From Bacteroidota bacterium (GTDB lineage Bacteria; Bacteroidota; Bacteroidia; M30B66), in assembly GCA_027490225.1 (NCBI GenBank), contig JAIXYK010000037.1, positions 1 to 64,000 of the forward strand: 64,000 bases of DNA, given 5' to 3'. Of this stretch, positions 8,325-52,959 are shown one piece after another. The first letter of the stretch is position 1. Every line of letters starts with the position of its first letter. The position numbers and the translations under genes are program-made. Below the pieces are notes generated by a model. That model was not told where the DNA came from. It ran no database searches and worked only from the letters and a program-made list of their open reading frames with translations.

Positions 8325-8894
8325 ATGTCAGAACTTGAAAATTACATTCAATCTTATTTTGGAGTTTCAAAAGAAGAAGTTTCTGCTATTAGTTCTATGT
8401 TTCAAAAAGTAAACTTAGAAAAAGGAGAGTTTTTTTTAAAAACAGGACGTTATTCTGAAAGATTAGGTTTTGTTCAAGCTGGAGTTATCAGAGAGTTTGT
8501 AATTATAAACGACAAAGAAGTAACGAAGTGGATTTCCACAAAGGGCTATTTCGTTGTAGACTTGTCGAGCTTTATTTTCAAACAAACAGCACGGTGGAAT
8601 ATTCAAGCGCTTACAGATTGCGAATTGTTTGTTATTAATATTGATAATTACAAGGAAATAGGGAAAACAATTCCACGCTGGGCTGAATTGGAAAAGTTAT
8701 TTATTGCTAAGTGTTTTACTGTTTTAGAAGATAGGGTTCTTACGCATTTAGCCATGACTGCTGAAGAAAGATATCTGCACCTTTTAGCTTTTAACAAAGA
8801 GTTATTTCAATTTGTTCCTTTACAATATTTAGCATCAATGTTGGGAATGACGCCTGAAACTTTAAGCAGATTGCGGAAAAAATCAGTTCAGTAA
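8325..8894 (+). CDS. Crp/Fnr-family transcriptional regulator
   Basis: This 189-residue protein has a cyclic-nucleotide-binding-like beta-barrel (about residues 20-120, including LEKGEFFLKTGRYSERLGFV and GVIREF) and a C-terminal winged-helix with recognition region LQYLASMLGMTPETLSRLRK (about 165-185). The standard cAMP-contacting residues are not evident, which is usual in Bacteroidota members of this family. It precedes an SRPBCC gene (now broken) and a DoxX-like gene; such regulators often control small stress or solvent-response genes beside them, but that link is inference. Confidence 0.85.
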   Translation: MSELENYIQSYFGVSKEEVSAISSMFQKVNLEKGEFFLKTGRYSERLGFVQAGVIREFVIINDKEVTKWISTKGYFVVDLSSFIFKQTARWNIQALTDCELFVINIDNYKEIGKTIPRWAELEKLFIAKCFTVLEDRVLTHLAMTAEERYLHLLAFNKELFQFVPLQYLASMLGMTPETLSRLRKKSVQ

Positions 8895-35712: not shown

Positions 35713-35751
35713 ATGAATTACATGTTAAAACGGACATCTGTCAGAATTTGA
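35713..35751 (+). CDS. Possible 12-codon leader peptide overlapping the giant gene's TTG start
   Basis: ATG at 35713 opens a 12-residue frame (MNYMLKRTSVRI) whose TGA stop (35749-35751) overlaps the TTG start of the giant gene (35748-35750) as TTGA. This could couple translation and allow use of the weak TTG. Alternatively a one-base indel has split the original N-terminus. It is too short to prove by sequence alone. Confidence 0.35.
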   Translation: MNYMLKRTSVRI

Positions 35752-38700
35752 AAAGTTTTTACAATTTTTTATTTAATATAATTTTGCAAAAGAGTAAAGT
35801 TTCTCTTTTGGTGTTTATTTGTTTAATAAACTCATCCATAGCACTAGCTCAGGGAGAAACAAATAATTGGTTTTTTGGAGGAAATGCAGGTGTTACTTTT
35901 AGCGGAGGAGCACCGGTGAGTTTGCCTAATGGTGCATTGATTTCTGGGGAAGGTGTATCGTCTATTTCTAATGCTGCCGGAAATCTATTGATTTATACTG
36001 ATGGAACAACTGTATATGATAGAAACGATAACATTATGCCCAATGGAAATGGCTTGTTTGGTGGAAATTCCTCAAGTCAATCTGCAGTAATAATTAGAAG
36101 ACCAGGAAGTAATACCATTTATTATGTATTTACAGTTGCTCAAGCTGCATTAGCAGAAGGCATTTGTTATTCAACAGTTAACATGACGTTAAATGGTGGT
36201 TTTGGTGACATTGTTAACGCCACCAAAAATACCCCATTAATAAGTCCAAGTACCGAAAAGCTCTCGGCTGTAAAGCATTGTAATGGAAGAGATGTTTGGG
36301 TCATCGGGCATGGTTATAACAATTCAACTTTCCACGCTTGGCTAGTTACGCCTGCAGGTGTGAATGCTGTTCCTGTAAATAGTGTTTCAGGCTCTGACCA
36401 TGGTACATCGGTAATTGGATGTTTAAAAGTATCACCTGATGGCAAAAGATTGGCTCTTGCAGTTTATGAAGTTGGAGGAACACAATATATTGAAGTTTTT
36501 GATTTTAATAATAACACAGGAGTAGTTTCAAACCCACGCAGATTTAACTACGGAGACGATTGTTACGGTATTGAGTTTTCTCCCAATAGTGAATTATTGT
36601 ATTACACCGCTTCAGCTAATACCAGCGCATCTGATATTAAAGTTTATCAAATGGATGTTTGTGAAACCACTCAAGCAAATATGGCAGCTTCAGCACAAAT
36701 TATTGGCGCCTCAAGTGCAGGCTTTATACGCTCTCTGCAATTAGGGCCAGACGGCAAATTATATTTCACAAGGTTTGGTCAAAGTTGGATAGGAGTGATT
36801 CCTTCGCCGAATACTCCAGGAATTGGCTGCGGTTTTAATGTAAATGGAGTTGCTCTGAGTCCAGGAACTACCTGCAGAGCTGGTTTGCCGAACTTTAATC
36901 AAAGCTTGTTCGAGGTTGAAGAAGATTTTACATATACTCAGAATTGCTTAAATGCAACTTTTTCTTCTCAAATAATTATTGATGAAGCAACTTGTAATGA
37001 CCCAGTAGTTCAAACACTTTGGAATTTTGGTGAGCCTTCATCAGGCGCAGCTAATACTTCTACAAGTAATAATCCATCCCATACCTACGCTAATCCTGGA
37101 ACTTACACTGTAAGACTCATATTGAATTACTCCTGCAAAAAAGACACTTTGTATGAAGTTTTAAATGTGAATTGTGGTCCTCAAGTTACACTAAATGATA
37201 CTGCAATTTGTTCTGGAACTTGTGGGACAATAAATTCATCAGTTATAGGTGGAACTCCTGGTTATACCTATTCTTGGTCGCCTAATATTGGAAGTGGACC
37301 AGGTCCGTTTTCTGTTTGCCCTTTGGCTACAACAAACTATATAGTTACAGTTACTGATGCAACGGGTCTTATCGATAGAGATACAGCCACTGTTACGGTT
37401 TCTTCTGTTCCTGTTCCAACATTTACATACGATCATGTAAATTGTTTCGGAGGCACAGATGGAGATGTAACAGCTCTTGCTACTGGTGCAGGAGGCCCAT
37501 TTAATTATTCATGGAACACCACTCCAGTTACCAATAATGCAGCGCTTATAAATGTGGCAGCCGGAACTTATCAGGTTACGGTCAGAAATGCAGCCAATTG
37601 CACCAGAACAGCAAATGCTACAATTACGCAACCAACTGCGTTAACCTTAACAGTTAACAAAACTAATACAGGTTGTGGAGTTCCTACAGGAACCGCAACT
37701 GCCTCTCCTTCAGGTGGAACTGCACCATATGTTGTTACTTGGAATTCTACTCCAGCTCAAACCGGACTAACTGCAAATGCACTTCCTGCCGGTAATTTTA
37801 TTGCAACAGTAACAGATGCAAATGGATGCATTCAAACACAAGCATTTACCATAAATTCAAGTAGCGGTCCAACATTAAACCTAACAGCTTCAACAAATGT
37901 AACTTGTAACGGAGGAACAAATGGAACAGCTACCGTTGTAGCAAGTGCAGGCGCAACACCATACACGTACAGTTGGAGCACTGGACAAACAACTTCTGCA
38001 GTAAATAACCTTCCAGCTGGAAACCATACCGCAACGGTTACAGATAATAATGGATGTTCCACTTCAGTACCGGTAGTAATTACTTCACCAGCAGCCATTC
38101 AAATTCAAACATCTATTACCACTGCAAGTTGTGGATTGGCAAATGGTTCGGCAACGGCATTGGCCAGCGGCGGTGCACCAACTTATACTTATTCCTGGAA
38201 CACGACACCAGTTCAAAATACAGCAACTGCCAATAATATTATTGCTGGAAATTATACAGTCACTGCAACAGATGCTAACGGTTGTTCTTCAACTGCAACC
38301 GCAATAGTTACAGGTACATCCAATCCAACCATTACCATTTCAAAAACAGATGTTACTTGTTTTGGAGGCAACAATGGAACCGCAACTGCCACAATAGGAG
38401 CGGGAACAGCACCATATTCAGTTACATGGAGCAATGCTGCAACAGGATTAACAGTTAGCAATTTAATTGCAGGAAATTATTCTGCTACAGTTACAGATGT
38501 GGCTGGGTGTTCAGCAACAGCCAATTTTACCATTACCCAACCAACAGCAATAAGTTTAGCAACTTCAAGCACGGCTGCAACTTGTGGAAGTAGTAATGGA
38601 AGTGCTACAGTTGTAATTAGTGGAGGAACAGGCCCATTTTCAACACAATGGAATACATCACCAGTAAGCAGCGGTCTTTCTATCAACAACATTCCAGCAG

Positions 38701-41700
38701 GTACATACATATTAACTGTTTCTGATAATAATAGCTGTACTGCAAATACAACAGTTGCTGTGAGCAATAGCAGTGGACCAACATTAAACCTAACAGCTTC
38801 AACAAGTGTAACTTGTAATGGAGGAACAAATGGAACAGCTACCGTTGTAGCAAGTGCAGGTGCAACACCATACACATACAGTTGGAGCACTGGACAAACC
38901 ACAGCAACAGTCAATAACCTTCCAGCTGGAAACCATACAGCAACGGTTACAGATAATAATGGTTGTTCCACTTCAGTTCCAGTGGTAATTACTTCACCGG
39001 CAGCCATTCAAATTCAAACATCTATTACCACTGCAAGTTGTGGACTGGCAAATGGTTCGGCAACAGCATTGGCCAGCGGCGGTGCACCAACTTATACTTA
39101 TTCCTGGAACACTACACCAGTTCAAAATACAGCAACTGCCAATAATATTATTGCTGGAAATTATACAGTTACAGCAACAGATGCCAACGGTTGTTCAGAA
39201 ACAGCAACGGCAACAGTTACAGGTACATCTAATCCAACCATTACCATTTCAAAAACAGATGTTACTTGTTTTGGAGGCAACAATGGCACCGCATCAGCCA
39301 CAATAGGAGCGGGCACAGCACCATTTACAGTAACATGGAGCAATGCTGCAACAGGATTAGCAGTTAGCAATTTAACTGCAGGAAATTATTCTGCTACAGT
39401 TACAGATGCGACAGGTTGTTCAGCAAACGATTTAGCTGTTATTGCTGAACCTAATCAGATTACAACACAAGTTAACATTACTGATGCTGCATGCGGAACT
39501 GCAACAGGAAGAGCTGATTTGATAATCAATGGTGGCACAGCCCCTTATGCTATTTCTTGGAACAGTTTGCCAATTCAAAATGGAATAAGTTTAACAAATG
39601 TTCAAGCAGGATTATACACTGCTCAAATTACAGATGCAAATGCGTGCACTTTGAATGTAAATGCACAAGTGAATAACCTTTCAGGCCCTCAGTTAACATT
39701 AGTTTCCAATAATAATGTAAGTTGTTTTGGAGGAAATGATGGCGCAATTGAGGTAAGTGTTTCGGGAGGTCAAGCTCCATTGTCTTTATCTTGGAACTCA
39801 GGACAAAATTCAACAAGCATTTCATCTCTAATTGCTGGAACATATACAGCTACACTAACTGATGCCATTGGTTGTAGTACTAGTTTATCTATCATTTTAA
39901 GTGAACCAATAGCATTACAAGCTGCAGTTTCAACTACACCAACTACTTGTGGAAATAACAATGGTACTGCCAATGCACAAATTACGGGTGGCGTTATTCC
40001 ATATATGTATAATTGGAATAATACAGGAATTGGTAGTTCATCAGTTTCTAATTTGGCTGCAGGAAATCAACAATTAGTGATTTCAGATGCCAATGGTTGC
40101 TCTATAAATGAAAATTTCACAATTTCTGCTTTGGTTCCACCAAGCGTAAACATTTCAATAGACAATAATATTAGTTGTCCGGGTGGAAGTAATGGTTCAT
40201 TGAGTGCAACAGTTATTCAAGGAGAAGCACCCTTTATTTATAATTGGTCAAATGGAAATTCTAATACAGTTATATTAAATTTAAATCAGGGTAATTATTC
40301 AGTGTCTGTAACTGATAATAATGGTTGTATTGCAAATGATGCAGTTCAATTGAATGCACCATCACCTTGGTCAAATTTCATCATTCCTCAGGCATCCACT
40401 TGCGGAAACAACAATGGTTCTGCATTATTGCTGTTAAATGGAGCTACATCACCTTATTCTGTGGTTTGGAGTAACGGACAAACATTGCCAAACGCAATAA
40501 ATCTCGCTGCTGGAAATTATTCTGTTGCAATTACAGATGCAAATGGTTGCACCAAAAATGAACAAACAACAATTTTTGATATTGGCGGATTAAGTGTTGT
40601 ACTAAACCAAACGCAACAAATAAGTTGTTTTGGATTTAATGATGCAGAAATATCAGCTACAGGGAATGGAGGAGTTCCTCCTTATAGTTATTCTTGGTCT
40701 AATGGGCAAAATTCTAACATCGCCACAAGTATTTCTGCTGGAAACATTTCATGTACAATTACAGATGCAAATGGATGTTCAACAACTTCATCTATTTCAA
40801 TTTCAGAACCTCAAGCTATATCAGCTACTTTTAATACACAACATACAAGCTGTAATCTTAACAATGGCGCTACTACAATCAATGTTTCAGGTGGAACCGC
40901 ACCTTATTTTTACAACTGGCAAAATGGAAATGCTACAAATACATTATTTTCTCTAGCACCTGGCCAAGTAACTTGCGTAGTTTCTGATATAAATGGATGT
41001 AGCACAAATTTCACAGAAAATATAAATGCTAGTACTGGAATTTCAGCAAGTTTAAATATAGACCAAGCCATATCATGTTTTCAGGGCTCAAATGGAATTG
41101 TTTCGGTAATTGGAAACAATACGCTTTCCGCATTATGGTCCAATGGAACAACAGGATTGGTTAACAATAACCTGAGTTCAGGAAATTACAATGTGAGATT
41201 AACAGATGCAAATGCTTGTATCGATACTTTATACATAGTTCTAAACGAACCTGCTGCAATTTCGACATCATTCACAAATTCAGCTGCTGTTTGTTTACTC
41301 AGCAATGGGTCTTCAATTCTAACCATTTCTGGAGGAACATCTCCATATACTTCTGTTTGGAACAATGGTATATCTGGATTGGTAAATAACAGTCTTTTAC
41401 CTGGAAATCAATCAGTATTGATAACAGATGCCAACGGATGTACTTTAAATGCTACAACTTCAATCCCTCAAGTGTTTCCGTTAAATATTGATTCTGTTCA
41501 GGTTACACCTTCAAATTGCTTTGGTGAAGCAAATGGAATTGCAACAACAATTGTTTCAGGTAATACAGGAAATGTTCAATGGAATTGGAGCAATGGTGCA
41601 GAAAATTTAGCCATAAACGACAGCTTAATGGCTGGAAATTACTCTGTTAGCATTTCTGATGAAGCAGGTTGTAACGATACGCAATCATTTATAATCACAC

Positions 41701-43856
41701 AACCGTTAGCCTTACAAAATACAATTCAAACTACTGATGTTCGTTGTTTTGGTGAGAACTCAGGTTCTGCTATTGCTAATGTTTCTGGAGGAACAGCTCC
41801 TTATTATTACACTTGGAACCAAATACCTGGCAACGATACATTAAATTTTATACAAACAGGAAATTACACAATTACTGTTTTAGATGCTTTTGGATGCAGT
41901 AGAACAGATTCTTTTGCTATTCAGCAACCAACATTATTGCAAGCATCTATTAATAAGACCAATGCAACTTGTGGATTGTCAAATGGAGTAATGCAAGTGT
42001 TTGTAAATGGAGGAATTGCTCCATATCAATTCGTTTGGAGCAACGGAATTCAGTTTAACCAAATAAACAATTTGCTTGCAGGAAATTATTCAGTTGAAAT
42101 ATCAGATGTAAATAATTGTTTGGTTTCTTTAAGTGATACAATAGTAGATCCGGGACCTCCATTAATCGATACCCTTAGTATTCAGAATGTTGATTGCTTT
42201 GGGAATTCAACTGGATCTGTACAAGTTTTAGCTACTGGTGGAATTGGTAATAAATCCTTTACTTGGAATAATGGAGTAAATTCAAGCATTTTAATCAATC
42301 AGATTGCTGGTGTTTATACAGTAATTGCGCAAGACCAGATAGGCTGCAGAGATACTTTGAGCATTGAATTAACTGAACCTTCTAAACTAGAAACAATAAC
42401 TTCAACTGCAATGTCTAATTGCTTTGGAAGTGCAACAGGACAAGCAAATGTGGAAGCCTTCGGTGGAACCGCACCATACACATATTATTGGAATCAAAAT
42501 CAAAATCAACAATCATTTTTAACCCAGATTATCGCTGGATTGTACACCGTATCTGTAACAGATGCCAATGGTTGTTACACAATTGATACTGCAATTGTAA
42601 ACCAGCCGCCTGTTTTACAATTAGATTTAACAACAAGTCCTGCAATCTGTTATGGGCAAGCTTCAGGAACAGCTAATGCAGTAGTTTCAGGAGGTATTCC
42701 ACCTTATATTTTGAGCTGGAACAATGGAAATGTAAATCCATATATTGACAATTTGCTTGCTGGAAACTACAATATAGTGGCATCAGATTCAAATGGATGT
42801 ACTATAAGCCAAGCTGTTGAAGTGACCCAACCTTTACCACTTAATGGACTTGTTTCTGGCGATGTTGCAGCTTGTAAAGGTAATTCTATTCAACTTTTAG
42901 TTTCTGGCGAAGGAGGAACATATCCATATTCTTACTTATGGGAAAACGGTGATGTTAATTCAAACACGATTATTACTCCAGATAGTTCTGGTTTTGCGAT
43001 GGTTATTACTACAGATGCCAACGGATGCATAGATACAAGTAGCAGACAGTACCGTATTTTTGAATTGCCAATAGTTGAAATTGTTTCTCAAGACACTTCA
43101 TTGTGCGCAGGTCAATGTATCAACTTAAGAGCTGCAGATGTATCTGGAGGTCAATTTTCATGGGAGTTCTTAAATAATGGAAGTATTATCGGTCAAACAG
43201 CTGAATTTTGCAGCAATACCGTAGGTAATTATGATATTTATATAGAGGTAACAGATATCAATAGTTGTTTTAACAGTCTCTTGCTACCAGGTTACATTCA
43301 AGTAAACCCTAATCCAATTGTTGATTTTGAGCCAGACAAAAGAACAGTTCCTTTGTTAGATGCGTTTATAAAATTTGATAATAATTCAATTGGAGCTTCA
43401 ACTTATTTGTGGGATTTAGATCCAGATGTTTCTGGAGATGAATCAACACTTCAATATCCAAATCACCAGTACGTAGAAGTAGGTTCTTATGAAGTTACTT
43501 TAACTGGTACAAATGAATTTGGCTGTAGTGCAACAATTTCAAGATTTGTTGATGTACTTGCAGATTTTGCAGTGTATATTCCAAATGCATTTACACCGAA
43601 TGGAGACGGATTAAATGATACATTTCAACCAAACGGTGTGGGAATCGACCCTTCCGATTATCTCATGCAGATTTATGACCGTTGGGGAAAACTGCTGTTC
43701 GAAACAGATATCTATTCTAAAGGTTGGGACGGAACAATTGAAAATGCTTACGGTGAATCTGAGCAGTCAGGAAATGTTTATGTTTACAAGATGCGCATAA
43801 AAGACTTCAGAGGCGATTACCATAAATTTAATGGAACTGCTACTCTGGTGCGTTAA
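35748..43856 (+). CDS. Giant SprB-repeat surface protein with gliding-associated C-terminal (T9SS type B) domain
   Basis: This 2702-residue protein has a signal peptide (1-35, ending SSIALAQ), a beta-propeller-like N-terminal domain (about 36-390), a PKD domain (about 395-475) and ~24 SprB-type repeats of ~75 residues (about 490-2370). Each repeat has the pattern CxGGxNGT, GGxxPYxYSW and VTDANGC. Another PKD-like segment (about 2480-2590) and a C-terminal FTPNGDGLND...YDRWGKLLFE domain (about 2600-2702) complete it. The tail directs T9SS export and surface attachment; SprB itself is the gliding adhesin of Flavobacterium. Two 659 bp stretches inside are near-identical. The start must be TTG 35748 to keep the signal peptide. 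Role: a large surface adhesin, not necessarily gliding, as no gld/spr genes are near. Confidence 0.88.
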   Translation: MKSFYNFLFNIILQKSKVSLLVFICLINSSIALAQGETNNWFFGGNAGVTFSGGAPVSLPNGALISGEGVSSISNAAGNLLIYTDGTTVYDRNDNIMPNGNGLFGGNSSSQSAVIIRRPGSNTIYYVFTVAQAALAEGICYSTVNMTLNGGFGDIVNATKNTPLISPSTEKLSAVKHCNGRDVWVIGHGYNNSTFHAWLVTPAGVNAVPVNSVSGSDHGTSVIGCLKVSPDGKRLALAVYEVGGTQYIEVFDFNNNTGVVSNPRRFNYGDDCYGIEFSPNSELLYYTASANTSASDIKVYQMDVCETTQANMAASAQIIGASSAGFIRSLQLGPDGKLYFTRFGQSWIGVIPSPNTPGIGCGFNVNGVALSPGTTCRAGLPNFNQSLFEVEEDFTYTQNCLNATFSSQIIIDEATCNDPVVQTLWNFGEPSSGAANTSTSNNPSHTYANPGTYTVRLILNYSCKKDTLYEVLNVNCGPQVTLNDTAICSGTCGTINSSVIGGTPGYTYSWSPNIGSGPGPFSVCPLATTNYIVTVTDATGLIDRDTATVTVSSVPVPTFTYDHVNCFGGTDGDVTALATGAGGPFNYSWNTTPVTNNAALINVAAGTYQVTVRNAANCTRTANATITQPTALTLTVNKTNTGCGVPTGTATASPSGGTAPYVVTWNSTPAQTGLTANALPAGNFIATVTDANGCIQTQAFTINSSSGPTLNLTASTNVTCNGGTNGTATVVASAGATPYTYSWSTGQTTSAVNNLPAGNHTATVTDNNGCSTSVPVVITSPAAIQIQTSITTASCGLANGSATALASGGAPTYTYSWNTTPVQNTATANNIIAGNYTVTATDANGCSSTATAIVTGTSNPTITISKTDVTCFGGNNGTATATIGAGTAPYSVTWSNAATGLTVSNLIAGNYSATVTDVAGCSATANFTITQPTAISLATSSTAATCGSSNGSATVVISGGTGPFSTQWNTSPVSSGLSINNIPAGTYILTVSDNNSCTANTTVAVSNSSGPTLNLTASTSVTCNGGTNGTATVVASAGATPYTYSWSTGQTTATVNNLPAGNHTATVTDNNGCSTSVPVVITSPAAIQIQTSITTASCGLANGSATALASGGAPTYTYSWNTTPVQNTATANNIIAGNYTVTATDANGCSETATATVTGTSNPTITISKTDVTCFGGNNGTASATIGAGTAPFTVTWSNAATGLAVSNLTAGNYSATVTDATGCSANDLAVIAEPNQITTQVNITDAACGTATGRADLIINGGTAPYAISWNSLPIQNGISLTNVQAGLYTAQITDANACTLNVNAQVNNLSGPQLTLVSNNNVSCFGGNDGAIEVSVSGGQAPLSLSWNSGQNSTSISSLIAGTYTATLTDAIGCSTSLSIILSEPIALQAAVSTTPTTCGNNNGTANAQITGGVIPYMYNWNNTGIGSSSVSNLAAGNQQLVISDANGCSINENFTISALVPPSVNISIDNNISCPGGSNGSLSATVIQGEAPFIYNWSNGNSNTVILNLNQGNYSVSVTDNNGCIANDAVQLNAPSPWSNFIIPQASTCGNNNGSALLLLNGATSPYSVVWSNGQTLPNAINLAAGNYSVAITDANGCTKNEQTTIFDIGGLSVVLNQTQQISCFGFNDAEISATGNGGVPPYSYSWSNGQNSNIATSISAGNISCTITDANGCSTTSSISISEPQAISATFNTQHTSCNLNNGATTINVSGGTAPYFYNWQNGNATNTLFSLAPGQVTCVVSDINGCSTNFTENINASTGISASLNIDQAISCFQGSNGIVSVIGNNTLSALWSNGTTGLVNNNLSSGNYNVRLTDANACIDTLYIVLNEPAAISTSFTNSAAVCLLSNGSSILTISGGTSPYTSVWNNGISGLVNNSLLPGNQSVLITDANGCTLNATTSIPQVFPLNIDSVQVTPSNCFGEANGIATTIVSGNTGNVQWNWSNGAENLAINDSLMAGNYSVSISDEAGCNDTQSFIITQPLALQNTIQTTDVRCFGENSGSAIANVSGGTAPYYYTWNQIPGNDTLNFIQTGNYTITVLDAFGCSRTDSFAIQQPTLLQASINKTNATCGLSNGVMQVFVNGGIAPYQFVWSNGIQFNQINNLLAGNYSVEISDVNNCLVSLSDTIVDPGPPLIDTLSIQNVDCFGNSTGSVQVLATGGIGNKSFTWNNGVNSSILINQIAGVYTVIAQDQIGCRDTLSIELTEPSKLETITSTAMSNCFGSATGQANVEAFGGTAPYTYYWNQNQNQQSFLTQIIAGLYTVSVTDANGCYTIDTAIVNQPPVLQLDLTTSPAICYGQASGTANAVVSGGIPPYILSWNNGNVNPYIDNLLAGNYNIVASDSNGCTISQAVEVTQPLPLNGLVSGDVAACKGNSIQLLVSGEGGTYPYSYLWENGDVNSNTIITPDSSGFAMVITTDANGCIDTSSRQYRIFELPIVEIVSQDTSLCAGQCINLRAADVSGGQFSWEFLNNGSIIGQTAEFCSNTVGNYDIYIEVTDINSCFNSLLLPGYIQVNPNPIVDFEPDKRTVPLLDAFIKFDNNSIGASTYLWDLDPDVSGDESTLQYPNHQYVEVGSYEVTLTGTNEFGCSATISRFVDVLADFAVYIPNAFTPNGDGLNDTFQPNGVGIDPSDYLMQIYDRWGKLLFETDIYSKGWDGTIENAYGESEQSGNVYVYKMRIKDFRGDYHKFNGTATLVR
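37860..38518 (+). repeat. Near-identical internal repeat in the SprB-repeat gene, copy 1
   Basis: This 659 bp segment encodes about three SprB repeats (residues ~705-923). It is almost identical at DNA level to 38769-39427, including synonymous sites, so it reflects recent duplication or gene conversion. Confidence 0.85.
38769..39427 (+). repeat. Near-identical internal repeat in the SprB-repeat gene, copy 2
   Basis: This is the partner of 37860-38518 at an offset of exactly 909 bp (303 codons). A diverged ~250 bp spacer encoding about one repeat separates the copies. Confidence 0.85.
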
Positions 43857-47393: not shown

Positions 47394-48194
47394 ATGCAAC
47401 ACATCGATTACAGCGAAGAAATCTGGAAAGAGCTGAACTTTCCTTTCGAGCATATCAACAAAATTAAAGTTGAAGTTTCCAATTTTGGAAGAGTAAAAAC
47501 ATATACCAAATTTTGCCCCGAAGGCGGAATTGTAAATGGTTCCTTAGTTGGTGGTTACCCTGTAGTTAGGTTGAAATTTTTTAAAGAAAGAGATCCCGAA
47601 CTAACCAAGAAGTTCAAGTACCTGCGCAATCAAATTACAACCCTGGTGGCTTCCATCAATAGAATGAAAAAGCAGTTAGCAGCACTCCCGCAGCGCAACC
47701 AGGAATATTATGAGTTAAAAAAACAATATACCGAAGCCGATAGTCTAAGGCAAAGTATGGAAAAAAGCTACAAAAAAGAATACCGCGCTGATGAACTTAA
47801 AAGGACCTATAATTATGGAGGGCTCGTTCACCGTATGGTTGCTTTAAGTTTCGTAGAACCTGCATCAGAGTTGCATAACCTTGTATCACACAAAGACCAT
47901 GATAAAAGAAATAATCATGTTTCTAATTTGATCTGGTTGACCCGCGAAGAAAGTGCCATTCATCAAAAGAAAAGTCCAAACGTAATCCACGAAAAAGAGC
48001 AAAGAAAGTTTAAAGAGCGCAACGAAAATACCAAGGTATATAAGCTCACATCTACTAAAGTAATGCTCATTAAAAAGAAAATAAACCAAGGCATTTCTTT
48101 GCGTCAACTATCCAAAACATTCAAAGTTACCGAAACGCAACTGCTCAGAATAAAACGAGGCGAAAACTGGGGGCACGTTCCCGCAGCAACTTAG
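47394..48194 (+). CDS. Free-standing HNH endonuclease with NUMOD4-like domain
   Basis: This 266-residue protein starts with a NUMOD4-like segment (EIWKEL, VEVSNFGRVKTY). A coiled-coil insertion follows (about 65-130, KKQLAALPQRNQEYYELKKQ). The HNH nuclease core is GLVHRMVALSFV then LVSHKDHDKRNNHVSNLIWL (about 162-181), and a C-terminal helix-turn-helix reads ISLRQLSKTFKVTETQLLRI. The layout matches HNH homing-type nucleases of phages and bacterial genomes. The first His of the usual VNHxD is retained (VSHKDHD). It lies 220 bp after tRNA-Gly with no recognisable intron or phage genes around it. It may be a mobile nuclease or a domesticated one. Confidence 0.75.
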   Translation: MQHIDYSEEIWKELNFPFEHINKIKVEVSNFGRVKTYTKFCPEGGIVNGSLVGGYPVVRLKFFKERDPELTKKFKYLRNQITTLVASINRMKKQLAALPQRNQEYYELKKQYTEADSLRQSMEKSYKKEYRADELKRTYNYGGLVHRMVALSFVEPASELHNLVSHKDHDKRNNHVSNLIWLTREESAIHQKKSPNVIHEKEQRKFKERNENTKVYKLTSTKVMLIKKKINQGISLRQLSKTFKVTETQLLRIKRGENWGHVPAAT

Positions 48195-48199
48195 GAAGC

Positions 48200-48300
48200 T
48201 ATTCTAATTTTTTTATTGGGGCGCATGCCTTCCTACGGTCGGCACCAGGTTTTTCGCGCCACATGGTGGCTGCTTCAACCCTTTGCGCGGCTTCGCGTTA
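48200..48300. repeat. GC-rich intergenic patch
   Basis: A GC-rich stretch after the HNH gene contains words such as GGGGCGCATGCC, GGTCGGCACC and GCGCGGCTTCGCG (a small palindrome). It has no coding potential and is similar in character to the patches at 26700, 29436 and 58035. Confidence 0.4.
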
Positions 48301-48340: not shown

Positions 48341-48408
48341 AGGGTGTTTTTCACGTACATCTATGTGAAAAATATACTTTTTATTCAAATCGGCTTCGTT
48401 CATTTTTG
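48341..48408 (+). promoter_or_regulatory. Operator-promoter module, copy 1
   Basis: GGGTGTTTTTCACG is followed by a perfect inverted repeat, TTTTTCAC (48347-48354) and GTGAAAAA (48365-48372), spacer 10 bp. TATACTTTTT (48373-48382) follows, and after 18 bp a -7-like CATTTTTG (48401-48408). It precedes the small lipoprotein gene at 48421. The inverted repeat sits directly upstream of the -33 position, as expected for an activator site. Confidence 0.6.
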
Positions 48409-48420
48409 TTGGTTTATAAA

Positions 48421-48663
48421 ATGAAAGTCATGAAAGTAAATCTTATACATTATTCCTGCTTATTTTTTGCTATTACACTCTTGTTTGCATGTGGAGGTAG
48501 CGAAGGAAACTTCAAAAAAAACCGAGTAGACAGCACTTATGTCGACAGTGTTTCAAAGGCAAGAATGTCGGAATTGCCTATTAAATATAGGGGAAATAAC
48601 ATTAAAGCTTTAAAAGGGGGTGTTTTTCACGGGACGGCCCAACGTGCAAAATATACTTTTTAG
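48421..48663 (+). CDS. Small lipoprotein of unknown function
   Basis: This 80-residue protein has a signal peptide with lipobox LLFACGG; starts at 48421 or 48430 are both possible. The mature part has a charged region (NFKKNRVDSTYVDSVSKARM) and ends GVFHGTAQRAKYTF, which is encoded by the second copy of the operator-like element upstream of the next gene. The real ancestral C-terminus may therefore have been replaced. No family recognised. Confidence 0.6.
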   Translation: MKVMKVNLIHYSCLFFAITLLFACGGSEGNFKKNRVDSTYVDSVSKARMSELPIKYRGNNIKALKGGVFHGTAQRAKYTF

Positions 48664-48688
48664 CTGTACACTTTTTGTTTCATCTTTG
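48616..48688 (+). promoter_or_regulatory. Operator-promoter module, copy 2
   Basis: GGGGTGTTTTTCACG, with half-site TTTTTCAC at 48623-48630, a 13 bp spacer, and degenerate half-site GTGCAAAA (48644-48651). TATACTTTTT (48652-48661) follows and, after 19 bp, -7-like CATCTTTG (48681-48688). It has the same architecture as copy 1 and lies upstream of the lipoprotein at 48713. GTTTCA/TGAAAC around the -7 forms another small inverted repeat. Confidence 0.6.
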
Positions 48689-48712: not shown

Positions 48713-49657
48713 ATGAAAATCAAATTTAAACTACTTACCACCATTTTGATTGCAAGTCAATTGGTGTTTTTTATTGTGCTGGCAGGTTGTGGTGAAAAGG
48801 GAGGGCATCCTAAATGCAATATTGTTGATGTTGATGTTTCTGGTCACGCAATTCAAATTTCAGAATTTTTTGATCAATCTGAAGCTTTTCAAAAAAAAAT
48901 AACTTATAACGATACAGAGATTGAAAGTGAAGCTAGTTTTTTAACACCTCAATTAGATACACTCAATTCAAATGCAATAACTGATTTATTAAATAGGTAT
49001 GCTAGTAGTATTGATTATAAAAGCGGAATTATTGGATTAAGGGTGTTTTTTACTTTAGATATAATTGATAAAAAAATTAAATTATACTATACGCCTGACA
49101 ATACAGAAGGGGTAGATGATTTAGGAAAAGGAGTATATGGATTTGTTTTTGGAAATAGATATGATAATGTTTTAGATTGTATTCAGAAGAGAGTTTCAAT
49201 TTACGAAGCTGTTAACGGAACATTAGTCGATATTTCAGATGATCAGAATAAGTTGACTTTAGCTAGGTTAAATTGGAACAACTATAAAAGTCAAATAATA
49301 TTTGATAAACGTGGACCATTTGGGGCAGATAGACAATTCGATATAAACGATGATGCAACTTCAGTGTTTTTTCCTCAAGAAGAATTTGAAGCTATTCGTT
49401 TAGCTAATTCAAGTTCAAACAAGCTTTATGTTGCATCTGGTTTAAAACCTTTTAGTTCAACATATCGGCACACAATTAATTTCGGAACAATTCATCCTCC
49501 AGTTGATTCTAGTAATAAAGAATTAACGGAAGAAGAAATAAGAGCATTTGTTGGTATGGCTGGAAATTTAGGTCAATTATGTCCTAGTAAATGCAAAGGT
49601 ATTAAAGCTAATAGAATTCCAGAAAACTCTTGTACTTTTAAGATTATAAAAGATTAA
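48713..49657 (+). CDS. Lipoprotein of unknown function
   Basis: This 314-residue protein has a signal peptide with lipobox VLAGCG. The mature part has a mixed alpha/beta composition, an acidic central region and a C-terminal segment with two cysteine pairs (LGQLCPSKCKGIK; PENSCTF). No family was recognised. It lies between the operator modules and the two-component system, 46 bp upstream of the membrane-protein gene, and may be its target or a sensory partner. Confidence 0.7.
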   Translation: MKIKFKLLTTILIASQLVFFIVLAGCGEKGGHPKCNIVDVDVSGHAIQISEFFDQSEAFQKKITYNDTEIESEASFLTPQLDTLNSNAITDLLNRYASSIDYKSGIIGLRVFFTLDIIDKKIKLYYTPDNTEGVDDLGKGVYGFVFGNRYDNVLDCIQKRVSIYEAVNGTLVDISDDQNKLTLARLNWNNYKSQIIFDKRGPFGADRQFDINDDATSVFFPQEEFEAIRLANSSSNKLYVASGLKPFSSTYRHTINFGTIHPPVDSSNKELTEEEIRAFVGMAGNLGQLCPSKCKGIKANRIPENSCTFKIIKD

Positions 49658-49703
49658 AATTAGGAACAAACAGTTTATTTGAAGAACCCCAAAATTTAAC
49701 CCA

Positions 49704-50345
49704 ATGAAATTCTACCTTTTAAATTTTGGTCCTCAAATACTCACAATAATATTAGGATTAATAAGTATAAGGCGATTAACTTTACCGTATTGCCTTATAC
49801 TTTTCCAAATCTTATTCAGCGTTTTTACTGATTTTTTCGCCCTTCAATATTTAAATTTTCATGCATCAAATGAAATTGTCTATAACATTTATCTAATCAT
49901 CGAAACTGCTCTGTTAACCAGTGCTATATTTTATTCCATTCATTCAAATAATGTGAAGAAAATACTTGGAATAGCTTTAATTACTTATCTGTTTTCTGTG
50001 CTTTTGATATTCAGTAAATCTTCTTTCCTCCAAATAAATTACGAGTTATTAATTACTGGTTTTATCATCATTGCTTTTTCAAATCTATTTTACATCATCA
50101 ACCCCTCAACTGAAAAATCAATTTTAAAAAATCCATTTTTAATTTTTGCCATCTCTCATGTAATATATTTTTTAGGTGTAACTCCTTATTTCGTAGCACG
50201 CCAAATGATAATTACGGATAGTCCTGAAATGGAATATACTTTATTCAGTTACATCAATATGACATTAATGATAGTAAGATATTCCTTTTGTGCATTCGCC
50301 TTTTTTATTGTGCTGAGGAAAAACATTGCCCTTCAAGTATCATGA
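49704..50345 (+). CDS. Multi-pass membrane protein coupled to the histidine kinase
   Basis: This 213-residue protein has six to seven membrane spans and short loops (for example IYNIYLIIETALLTSAIFYS). Its stop codon overlaps the kinase start (ATGA, 50342-50345), so the two are translationally coupled. I do not recognise the family. Because the kinase has only a single membrane span and no sensor domain, this protein is a candidate signal-perceiving partner, which is inference from gene order. Confidence 0.72.
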   Translation: MKFYLLNFGPQILTIILGLISIRRLTLPYCLILFQILFSVFTDFFALQYLNFHASNEIVYNIYLIIETALLTSAIFYSIHSNNVKKILGIALITYLFSVLLIFSKSSFLQINYELLITGFIIIAFSNLFYIINPSTEKSILKNPFLIFAISHVIYFLGVTPYFVARQMIITDSPEMEYTLFSYINMTLMIVRYSFCAFAFFIVLRKNIALQVS

Positions 50346-51118
50346 ACCAACAAGCGCTTTTCATCGGTATCATTGTTACTACACTGGTTATACTCTTGTT
50401 AATTGCAAGCATTGTAATATCAGTGTTTATTGCCAGCCGACAGCGCTTACAGCAAGACATTAAGCTTTCTCAGATGGAATTGACCTATGAAAAAGAATTA
50501 CGTCAAACAGAATTGGAAGTAAAAGAACAACTTATGGCGCAAGTATCTCGAGAATTGCACGATCACGTTGGCCATACGCTCACCAACATGCGCCTAACCA
50601 TCGAAAATAAAAAAATTGATTACCCCGAAGTCGAAAACTTGTTCAAACCTGTAGAAATTCTGCTCGATGAGGCCGCATTGCAATTGCGTATGCTGAGTCG
50701 CTCTATGAATTCTGATTACCTCAATGGGCTTACTTTTCAAGATGCCATTCAGCAAGAAACAATCCGCTTGCAAGGTATTTCTAAAATGGAAATCGATTAC
50801 CGACCTGGAACACATATATATCCAACAGTTAATAAGGACCAATTACTGATGAGCTTTAGAATATTTCAGGAAATTCTCAATAACGCAATCAAACATTCAG
50901 GAGCTAAGAAATTATTAATCAGGAGCAACCATTCCGACTATTTACTCCAAGTGAGCGACGAGGGCAAAGGATTCGATTTGCAACAAACCATCGCTACGGG
51001 CAAAGCTTCAGGGCTAAATAATATGCAAAAAAGGGCGACCCTTGCAAAGCTCGATTTACAAATTATTACAGCACCACAAAAAGGAACTTCCATTACTTTA
51101 AAAGTGCAAAACACCTAA
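50342..51118 (+). CDS. NarL-type sensor histidine kinase (HisKA_3)
   Basis: This 258-residue kinase has one N-terminal membrane span (about 8-30), a short coiled coil, the dimerisation/phosphoacceptor motif SRELHDHVGHTL with His73, and a C-terminal ATPase domain (QEILNNAIKHSGAKKL, then SDEGKGFDL and SGLNNMQKRATLAKL). There is no periplasmic or PAS sensor domain. It should phosphorylate the LuxR-type regulator 12 bp downstream. Confidence 0.9.
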   Translation: MNQQALFIGIIVTTLVILLLIASIVISVFIASRQRLQQDIKLSQMELTYEKELRQTELEVKEQLMAQVSRELHDHVGHTLTNMRLTIENKKIDYPEVENLFKPVEILLDEAALQLRMLSRSMNSDYLNGLTFQDAIQQETIRLQGISKMEIDYRPGTHIYPTVNKDQLLMSFRIFQEILNNAIKHSGAKKLLIRSNHSDYLLQVSDEGKGFDLQQTIATGKASGLNNMQKRATLAKLDLQIITAPQKGTSITLKVQNT

Positions 51119-51130
51119 AAACCAATCACC

Positions 51131-51796
51131 ATGAAAGAAAAACAATCTATCATTTTAGTCGACGATCATGTGGTAGTGCGCAACGGTCTCAGAGAGCTTA
51201 TCGATAAATTAGGTAATTATAAAGTTACCAGCGAATACGATAGTGGAATAGATTTATTAGAAGCCTTAGAAAAAAAAGTAACCGCCGACTTAATTGTAAT
51301 GGACCTCTCAATGCCAGGAATGAATGGTGATGATGTGCTGGAAGAAATGAATAAACGCGGTGTAGAAACTCCCGTTTTGATTCTAACAGTGAATAGCGAA
51401 CCTGGGAAGCATGTTAAACTATTCCGTTTGGGTGCGCGTGGCTATATTCAAAAAAATTCTTCTGCGCTTATTCTTCGGGAAGCACTTGCTGATATTTTCA
51501 GTCGTGGTTATTACCACAACGATCTTTTGGCCGATGCACTTACATCTGTTTATAAAAAACAAGATAAAGACCCGCGCACAGTTATTTTGGAAAAGCTCAG
51601 CGAACGTGAAAAAGAATTTCTAAAATTGGTTTGTCACGAAGAAGAATATACTTACGAGCAAATTGCTGCCATGATGGGCGTGCATCGGCGAACCGTTGAT
51701 GGATACAGGGAATCGGTTTTCGATAAATTCGAAATTAAATCTAAAACGGGTTTGGTGCTTTTTCTTGTCAGAAACAATCTGCTAGAGCTGTTGTAA
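51131..51796 (+). CDS. LuxR/NarL-family response regulator
   Basis: This 221-residue regulator has a receiver domain (acidic pair Asp11-Asp12, phosphoacceptor Asp58 in VMDLSMPGMNG, Lys near YIQKNSSA) and a C-terminal GerE-type helix-turn-helix (LSEREKEFLKLVCHEE, IAAMMGVHRRTVDGYRESVF). It is the partner of the upstream kinase. The inverted repeats at 48347-48372 and 48623-48651 and the related sequence near 51876 are candidate binding sites. A strong terminator follows. Confidence 0.92.
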   Translation: MKEKQSIILVDDHVVVRNGLRELIDKLGNYKVTSEYDSGIDLLEALEKKVTADLIVMDLSMPGMNGDDVLEEMNKRGVETPVLILTVNSEPGKHVKLFRLGARGYIQKNSSALILREALADIFSRGYYHNDLLADALTSVYKKQDKDPRTVILEKLSEREKEFLKLVCHEEEYTYEQIAAMMGVHRRTVDGYRESVFDKFEIKSKTGLVLFLVRNNLLELL

Positions 51797-51817: not shown

Positions 51818-51856
51818 AAGGATTCATTATGTTATTTAATGAATCCTTTTTTTTTT
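51818..51856 (+). terminator. Rho-independent terminator after the response regulator gene
   Basis: AAGGATTCATTA (51818-51829) pairs perfectly with TAATGAATCCTT (51837-51848) around a 7-base loop and is followed by T residues to 51856. Confidence 0.9.
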
Positions 51857-51872: not shown

Positions 51873-51968
51873 AATACGTGTAAAACCCCCTCCAAACGAT
51901 TGCACATTTTCTTGCCAAATAACTGAGCAAAATAGCCTGTTACAGGTCTTCTCATAGTTTCACATTTG
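51873..51968 (+). promoter_or_regulatory. Regulatory region of the 52024 gene
   Basis: TACGTGTAAAACCCCCTCC (from 51875) is a reverse-oriented relative of the GGGGGTGTTTTTCACG element. CCTGTTACAGG (51936-51946) is a palindrome, and CACATTTG (51961-51968) matches the CAnnTTTG form of -7 seen in the two lipoprotein promoters. The leader would be ~50 bases. Confidence 0.35.
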
Positions 51969-52023: not shown

Positions 52024-52959
52024 ATGAAAACACTATGCTCAATTTTATTTTCTGCTACATTTTGTTTCGCGGCCTTACAAACGGCTTCTGCTAATGACAG
52101 CAAACAGAAAAAAAGTGTAAAATGTCAGAAACTCCTAAGTTCCGGAAATTATGTAATCGATCTAATTGCATTGGGAGCCTTAAACAAAGATACAGTTTAT
52201 GGTTCATCGTCAGCTCCGAGCCTTATCGAGTTAATGAGAGATTCTTATTCCGCTTCTTTTAGTTTCGAAAAGACAGATCCGATAATTACCGACACCATTG
52301 CTGTTAACAAGGTAGAAAAATCTGGTTTTTCAATTGGAAATGAAGGTGTCAGAAATAACGAGTTGCCATTGGTAGTGCAGCAAAAACTGAGGTTCTCAGC
52401 TATCTTATGCGTTATATTATTTGTATTTTTTGTCTTAGCAGGATATACTTCACCATTATTCCGAAAAGCATATGGATTTGCAATTTCAGAGTTAACACCC
52501 TTTAGCCTTTCAAGATGTATTTTGTTTTTATGGATTTTCTTCCTTTTGGGAACCACTTTTACAATTTTTGGAAGTACAGGTAATTTGCCTAATTACAGAA
52601 TCAGTATTCCTTATTTTGGAGGCTTAATATTCATTACTTTTTTATTCACTTTTTTTGTAGAAAAAATTGGATATCGAAATGATAAAAATGGCACTTTAAA
52701 AAGAAAAAGTAAGGGTATTATTAACGATTTATTAAGATTCCAAGGAAAGCTATGCCTGCCTCGCTTACAGTATTTGCTAGTTTCGTTAATTAACCTCGGA
52801 CTTGTTGTTTTACCAGCCTGGCAACAGCTATTTTTCAGCGATTTGCCTGGATTTCTTTTCGTTATTCAAACCCTCAGCAGTGCAATTTACATTGGCCATA
52901 AAGCCGCGCGTTTGCAAAATTTACACTCGTTTATTCTCAGAAAATCTATGCGCACTTAA
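52024..52959 (+). CDS. Exported membrane protein of unknown function
   Basis: From ATG 52024 this is a 311-residue protein with a signal peptide (ATFCFAALQTASA), an extracytoplasmic region of ~100 residues, then about five membrane spans (for example LCVILFVFFVLAGY and ISIPYFGGLIFITFLFTFF) separated by basic loops (RNDKNGTLKRKSKG). No family was recognised. The upstream start at 51991 would lose the signal peptide and was rejected. It follows the response regulator and shares promoter features with the upstream lipoproteins, so it may belong to the same regulon. Confidence 0.65.
   Translation: MKTLCSILFSATFCFAALQTASANDSKQKKSVKCQKLLSSGNYVIDLIALGALNKDTVYGSSSAPSLIELMRDSYSASFSFEKTDPIITDTIAVNKVEKSGFSIGNEGVRNNELPLVVQQKLRFSAILCVILFVFFVLAGYTSPLFRKAYGFAISELTPFSLSRCILFLWIFFLLGTTFTIFGSTGNLPNYRISIPYFGGLIFITFLFTFFVEKIGYRNDKNGTLKRKSKGIINDLLRFQGKLCLPRLQYLLVSLINLGLVVLPAWQQLFFSDLPGFLFVIQTLSSAIYIGHKAARLQNLHSFILRKSMRT

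Follow-up and report, generated by a model that had tools for sequence, protein, structure and literature searches.

The analysed window is the whole 64,000-nucleotide stretch of contig JAIXYK010000037.1 from a Bacteroidota bacterium. The locus under study carries a cassette of four genes, encoding in order a secreted CPxxC protein (lipoprotein 2), a 7-helix membrane protein, a short HisKA_3 kinase, and a LuxR/NarL-type response regulator (Table 1). Two modules, M1 (48342-48408) and M2 (48618-48688), precede it. M1 lies upstream of a small ORF (ORF1), which has no Pfam or NCBIfam match and no convincing relative among the sequences compared; M2 overlaps the 3' end of ORF1 and heads the regulator operon. 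Between the HNH-endonuclease gene (47394-48194) and M1, a GC-rich GCGCATGCCTTCCTACGGTCGGCACCAGG... stretch (48220-48300) looks inserted or REP-like, and no second copy of it was found among the sequences compared.

The proteins of the cassette differ in how far they can be named. Lipoprotein 2 has a 29% identical ortholog in G002 (MAG M30B66), a genome of another genus, referred to below as the sister genome (its locus is L154). No match to lipoprotein 2 was found in a 396-genome sample of the phylum, nor in Pfam or NCBIfam. The alignment of eight CPxxC family members is diverse, with only six invariant columns, and the predicted structure of lipoprotein 2 has a mean pLDDT of 35. The 7-helix protein was modelled with a mean pLDDT of 82.5; it has no Pfam or NCBIfam family, and its best match among solved structures (E 0.05) is not significant and shares only a GPCR-like topology. 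The kinase carries HisKA_3 and HATPase_c domains above cut-off and lies 12 bp before the regulator gene, and the pair is kept in other genomes. The 51131 regulator has Pfam matches to Response_reg (1.8e-23) and GerE (9.9e-08) that exceed the cut-offs, which makes it NarL/LuxR-type; its nearest solved full-length structure is NarL (1a04). The genes are separated by a 46-bp gap (48713/49704) and the 12-bp gap between kinase and regulator, and the 49704 and 50342 genes overlap. No terminator-like site was found on the operon's strand inside the operon. Since M2 heads an operon with small gaps, an overlap and a terminator at its end, it very probably drives the regulator gene, as judged from this layout.

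Table 1. Features of the locus. Positions refer to the window unless a locus is named; promoter positions are relative to inferred start sites.
Feature	Position	Strand	Remarks
M1 distal site GGGTGTTTTTCACGT	48342..48356	+	dyad GTG-N5-CAC, centre about -63/-64; GGGTGTTTTTCACG = 48342-48355
M1 arm-plus-TATACTTTTT block GTGAAAAATATACTTTTT	48365-48382		
M1 proximal site GTGAAAAATATAC	48365..48377	+	arm start -48; CAC-N10-GTG, inverted with respect to distal arm
M1 TATACTTTTT	48373..48382	+	3' part where a -33 element would be; M3/M4 carry CCTATTG there
M1 -7 element CATTTTTG	48401..48408	+	C instead of T(-12); inferred start site 48413; 18-bp gap
ORF1, 80-aa putative lipoprotein	48421..48663	+	downstream of M1; M2 overlaps its 3' end
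M2 distal site GGGTGTTTTTCACG	48618..48631	+	
M2 block GTGCAAAATATACTTTTT	48644-48661		
M2 proximal site GTGCAAAATATAC	48644..48656	+	starts at -49; CAC-N13-GTG
M2 -7 element CATCTTTG	48681..48688	+	inferred start site 48693; 19-bp gap
Lipoprotein 2	48713..49657	+	secreted family, C-terminal CPxxC; first gene of regulator operon
Membrane protein	49704..50345	+	7 predicted helices; 41% identical in sister genome
HisKA_3/HATPase_c histidine kinase	50342..51118	+	one hydrophobic N-terminal segment; 66% identical in sister genome
NarL/LuxR-type response regulator	51131..51796	+	proposed module binder; 81% identical in sister genome
Intrinsic terminator ending operon	51818..51848	+	12-bp stem and T tract
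Class-2 single site TACGTGTAAAACCCCC	51875..51890	+	arm in reverse orientation; same position in L154, two homologs
CCTGTT	51937..51942	+	-33 region; kept in three class-2 promoters
-7 element of 52024 gene, CACATTTG	51961..51968	+	86 bp after class-2 site start
Conserved membrane protein	52024..52959	+	homologs (two copies) after regulator in sister genome
Cassette copies	window 48713-51796; L154 1608-5666; L166 420-4605 (-); L167 7244-10170; L168 4804-7811 (-); L155 2473-5675, 6849-9992		

M1 and M2 have in common GGGTGTTTTTCACG, the inverted but imperfect arm GTGnAAAATATAC, TATACTTTTT, and a -7 element of the form CAnnTTTG. The original prediction had described this repeated operator-promoter module upstream of 48421 and 48713; all elements were located there, and the 18-19 bp gaps were confirmed. 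The modules share a 20-nt and a 19-nt block, each 95% identical, at spacings of 276 and 279; the 3-bp difference corresponds to the spacer between the arms.

The specificity of the motif was evaluated against reversed controls. The composite GTGTTTTTCACN{4,24}ATACTTTTT matched only M1 and M2 in the 3.77-Mb genome, and its reversed control gave 0 matches. A shorter composite ending in ATACTTT had no match in the 59 other genomes searched, and a longer one ending in AAATATACTTTTT was absent from 84,980 species genomes. Taken alone with 1-2 mismatches, the 11- and 14-mers GTGTTTTTCAC and GGGTGTTTTTCACG occurred at the background level of the reversed control; hence, the composite carries the significance. 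A large regulon was rejected on the same counts and on those of TTTTCACGT-N6-ACGTGAAAA with 3 mismatches, which equalled the reversed-control level. Exact GTGTTTTTCAC matches at C13:579, C54:42842, and C61:52275 were rejected because they lie within coding frames. The match at C55:13949 (GGGTATTTTTCACG) was left out, having neither the second arm nor the spacing, as were other CCTATTG...TAnnTTTG promoters, which have no operator.

The exact 14-mer GGGTGTTTTTCACG has one more copy in the genome (G000:C35:106044). The 840-bp gap that holds this copy, M3, precedes a TPR/SpoIIE-phosphatase gene, and the nearest ORF starts approximately 390 bp after M3 (L036 4117-4507, G000:C35). A sequence-only profile of M1-M3 returned these three from the genome and then M4, which had not been used to build it (G000:C35:109293-109355, E=0.007). 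M4 (GGGGGTACGTGTTTTTTCACGTGTAGATACGTGAAAATACCTATTGG...TATGTTTG) lies 3.2 kb from M3, and its inferred start site is 136 bp before a surface-type protein ORF of >2,160 codons. M1-M4 thus stand upstream of separate transcription units on two contigs, and class-2 sites (see below) add to them. The expectation that other genomic copies would occur upstream of genes was borne out by M3 and M4; the search suggested for finding them, TTTTTCAC-N10..13-GTG(A/C)AAAA, would as worded miss M3 and the copies in G002 and G006 described below. A fifth full module was not found by the profile in the same genome, where the weaker matches all scored <16 bits, and the regulon looks small, with four full modules. 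Transcription from M3 would give either an mRNA with a long leader or a small RNA of its own. Elsewhere in the window, a 2,702-codon repeat-rich surface-protein ORF (35748-43856) has no operator of the M1-M4 type upstream.

When the M1-M4 profile was run against 13 genomes, the best match outside the own genome was G002:C5:31137-31177 (E=0.04 genome-wide; 3.5e-4 over six loci), which is also the top match of the sister genome. It occupies the orthologous place, in front of homologs of lipoprotein 2, the membrane protein, the kinase, and the response regulator. The M1 15-mer GGGTGTTTTTCACGT has exact copies at G002:C5:31162 and at M3. In a third genus (G006), the previous gene is followed by a terminator-like hairpin, and GGGTCATTTACACGGTTAGATGGCGTGAAAAGCAACC and GATGTTTG come directly after it, ahead of the orthologous operon. 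These three genera are the only module carriers. The same gene order is found in G006, G008, and G016, and twice in tandem with an extra regulator in the Flavobacteriales genome MAG-317. G008 has a related cassette and a nearly identical recognition helix, with no module in front. The segment QIAxMMGVHRRTVDGYRES, which covers the recognition helix, is the same in the three module-bearing regulators. Across 60 genomes (roughly 200 Mb), exact GGGTGTTTTWCACGT had six occurrences: two in the own genome, three in the sister genome, and one in G024, where the exact 15-mer was rejected because it lies within a coding frame. All three sites of the sister genome fall within 20 kb around the regulator operon. 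The W in GGGTGTTTTWCACGT was allowed after the sister genome had been seen; the T-only version still keeps the orthologous-promoter site there.

Primary sigma promoters of Bacteroidota have a -33 TTTG and a -7 TAnnTTTG element (PMC6847099, PMC9723704). In Flavobacterium johnsoniae, the -7 consensus TAHHTTTG spans -12 to -5, T(-12) is nearly invariant, and G at -9 is virtually absent (PMC6847099). The six promoters that carry a full module share the A..TTTG core of the -7 element with this class. They differ from it in the added upstream double site, in a -33 TTG that is clear only in M3 and M4, and in lacking T(-12) or having G at -9 in all six cases. The -7 elements are CATTTTTG (M1), CATCTTTG (M2), TATGTTTG (M3 and M4), AATCTTTG (G002), and GATGTTTG (G006). 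TAnnTTTG is present in M3 and M4; T(-12) is replaced in the other four, one of which has G at -9, as do M3 and M4. Such departures from consensus fit activator dependence, as had been proposed from M1 and M2.

The distance from the proximal arm ([GA]TG[AC]A) to the.A..TTTG element is 36, 37, 38, 37, 36, and 36 bp in the six promoters. Counted from the inferred start sites, this arm begins between -48 and -50 in all six, abutting the -35/-33 region at a fixed phase, and the centre of the distal dyad falls near -64. This agrees with the class-II activator position assigned in the original prediction. The pattern TTTWCACG-N7..13-RTGMA-N31..33-NANNTTTG matches 6/6 promoters, whereas neither 48 Mb of simulated DNA nor 0.36 Mb from other loci yielded a match; like the class-2 pattern, it was written post hoc, and its counts describe specificity and are not an independent p-value.

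The arms had been taken for a single inverted repeat, and M1 and M4 do have the appearance of one long inverted repeat. Both arms are present, the second imperfect. Each arm is itself a dyad, GTG-N5-CAC (GTGTTTTACAC in the sister genome), single arms also occur alone, and the spacing between arms varies (CAC-N9 to N13-GTG). On these grounds, two neighbouring dimer sites, a strong distal and a weaker proximal one, appear to be a better reading than one palindrome. With a spacing that varies by 4 bp, two separate sites would need flexible cooperativity.

Class-2 promoters have a single site. Behind the operon terminator, such a site precedes the 52024 gene, and the sister genome has two more, TACGTGTAAAACACCC (L154:8328) and TACGTGTAAATGCACGTA (L154:5742), both with CCTGTT and CACCTTTG after them. 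The distance from the class-2 site to CAnnTTTG is 86, 84, and 85 bp in front of the three homologous genes, which belong to two genera. Ahead of a large VWA/DUF11 surface protein, the sister genome has a further single site, which stands 34 bp before GATATTTG. In that unit (L165 2850-3070 (-); G002:C5:44056), the operator and GATATTTG are followed within approximately 170 bp by a strong, terminator-like hairpin, CCGGGATTTTACAGTGTAAAATCCCGG, and a T tract before any long ORF, which could be a regulated small RNA or the leader of the VWA surface protein.

We are highly confident that the modules are real operator-promoters. They would also probably be tandem sites of the operon's own 51131 regulator, which would bind them and activate transcription; synteny, co-occurrence, and the identical recognition helix point to this regulator. 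A link to this LuxR-type protein had been suggested from its proximity. It is strengthened by the position of M2 at the head of the regulator's operon and by the co-occurrence of motif and operon across genera, and the choice of binder is still one that we infer. The modules, their geometry, their conservation across genera, the operon layout, and the conserved recognition helix can be read from the DNA itself; the binder, direction of control, phosphorylation, signal, and autoregulation are put forward as a model. In the model, the secreted CPxxC protein, the 7-helix membrane protein, and the HisKA_3 kinase would sense a surface or envelope signal. The phosphorylated regulator would bind the distal dyad GTGTTTTTCAC, a strong site centred at about -64, and would cooperatively occupy the weaker proximal one, GTGAAAAATAC, which starts at -48 to -50 and has its centre at about -43. 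The bound regulator would then contact RNA polymerase and offset the poor -7 element, as in class-II activation. Because M2 heads the operon that ends with the regulator gene, positive autoregulation is proposed; M1 would add a second promoter and a small lipoprotein.

The modules could instead be true operators of a different regulator, with the neighbouring response regulator merely one of its targets. Operators can outnumber a local regulon, M3 and M4 lie on another contig, response-regulator families are widespread, and a Crp/Fnr-like protein, named from sequence only, is encoded at 8325-8894 of the window. However, the three exact sites of the sister genome all cluster around the operon and occur nowhere else in that genome, the cassette-free genomes among the 60 have no exact site save the one inside a gene, and the recognition helix is conserved along with the motif. 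We consider a different regulator unlikely, with an appreciable residual chance. A role of the sites as repressor operators is improbable. Inverted arms in front of a promoter are typical of repressors too; however, each site begins 36-38 bp ahead of its -7 element, in constant phase and either touching the -33 region or lying directly upstream of it, and the off-consensus -7 elements (at T(-12), or with G at -9) are as expected for activator dependence.

Both window copies lie in one 350-bp stretch with nearly identical blocks, and M2 sits in the end of ORF1, as a recent local duplication without regulatory meaning would leave them. Against this, the module recurs on a second contig and, in two other genera, at the orthologous operon, where the upstream DNA is otherwise unalike while the geometry is kept; M1 and M2 also have different arm spacers. 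Judged by this distribution, the modules are not a local duplication; the strong form of that reading is refuted, and overall it has very little probability. One of the two, M1 or M2, may have arisen from the other by duplication, which is compatible with function.

The proposed activation by the operon's own regulator has a parallel in the DevR/DosR promoters of Mycobacterium tuberculosis, where a NarL-type regulator cooperatively binds at least two closely packed sites, the start-proximal site overlaps -35, and the regulator is autoregulated (PMC3029386). A NarL/LuxR-type response regulator, tandem packed sites, and a proximal site by -35/-33 are common to both; autoregulation and cooperative binding are proposed here. 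The two differ in phylum, sensor, operator sequence, and promoter type (here the Bacteroidota -33/-7 type), and binding is predicted in the present case. The likeness is one of site arrangement and not of membership. The domain make-up of kinase and regulator is that of NarL-, VraR-, and UhpA-type systems with HisKA_3 kinases. In contrast to those systems, the NCBIfam equivalog matches listed are far below their cut-offs, and the operon has the 7-helix and CPxxC proteins in addition. The literature searched yielded no published site that matches the operator and nothing relevant on a LuxR site in Bacteroidetes.

The regulon is small, lineage-limited, and new; the kind of system is known. A bolder and rather doubtful extension is that the CPxxC protein, the 7-helix protein, and the short kinase form one receptor of an undescribed Bacteroidia signalling system, driving a few surface-protein genes per species through the LuxR-type regulator and tandem operator. 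Few LuxR/NarL-type response-regulator operators are known in Bacteroidota. The present operator was readable from sequence alone, with cross-genus support, a fixed promoter geometry, and named target genes, and this makes the regulator, operator, and regulon directly testable. The module also marks a four-gene cassette, two of whose families have no Pfam or NCBIfam name.
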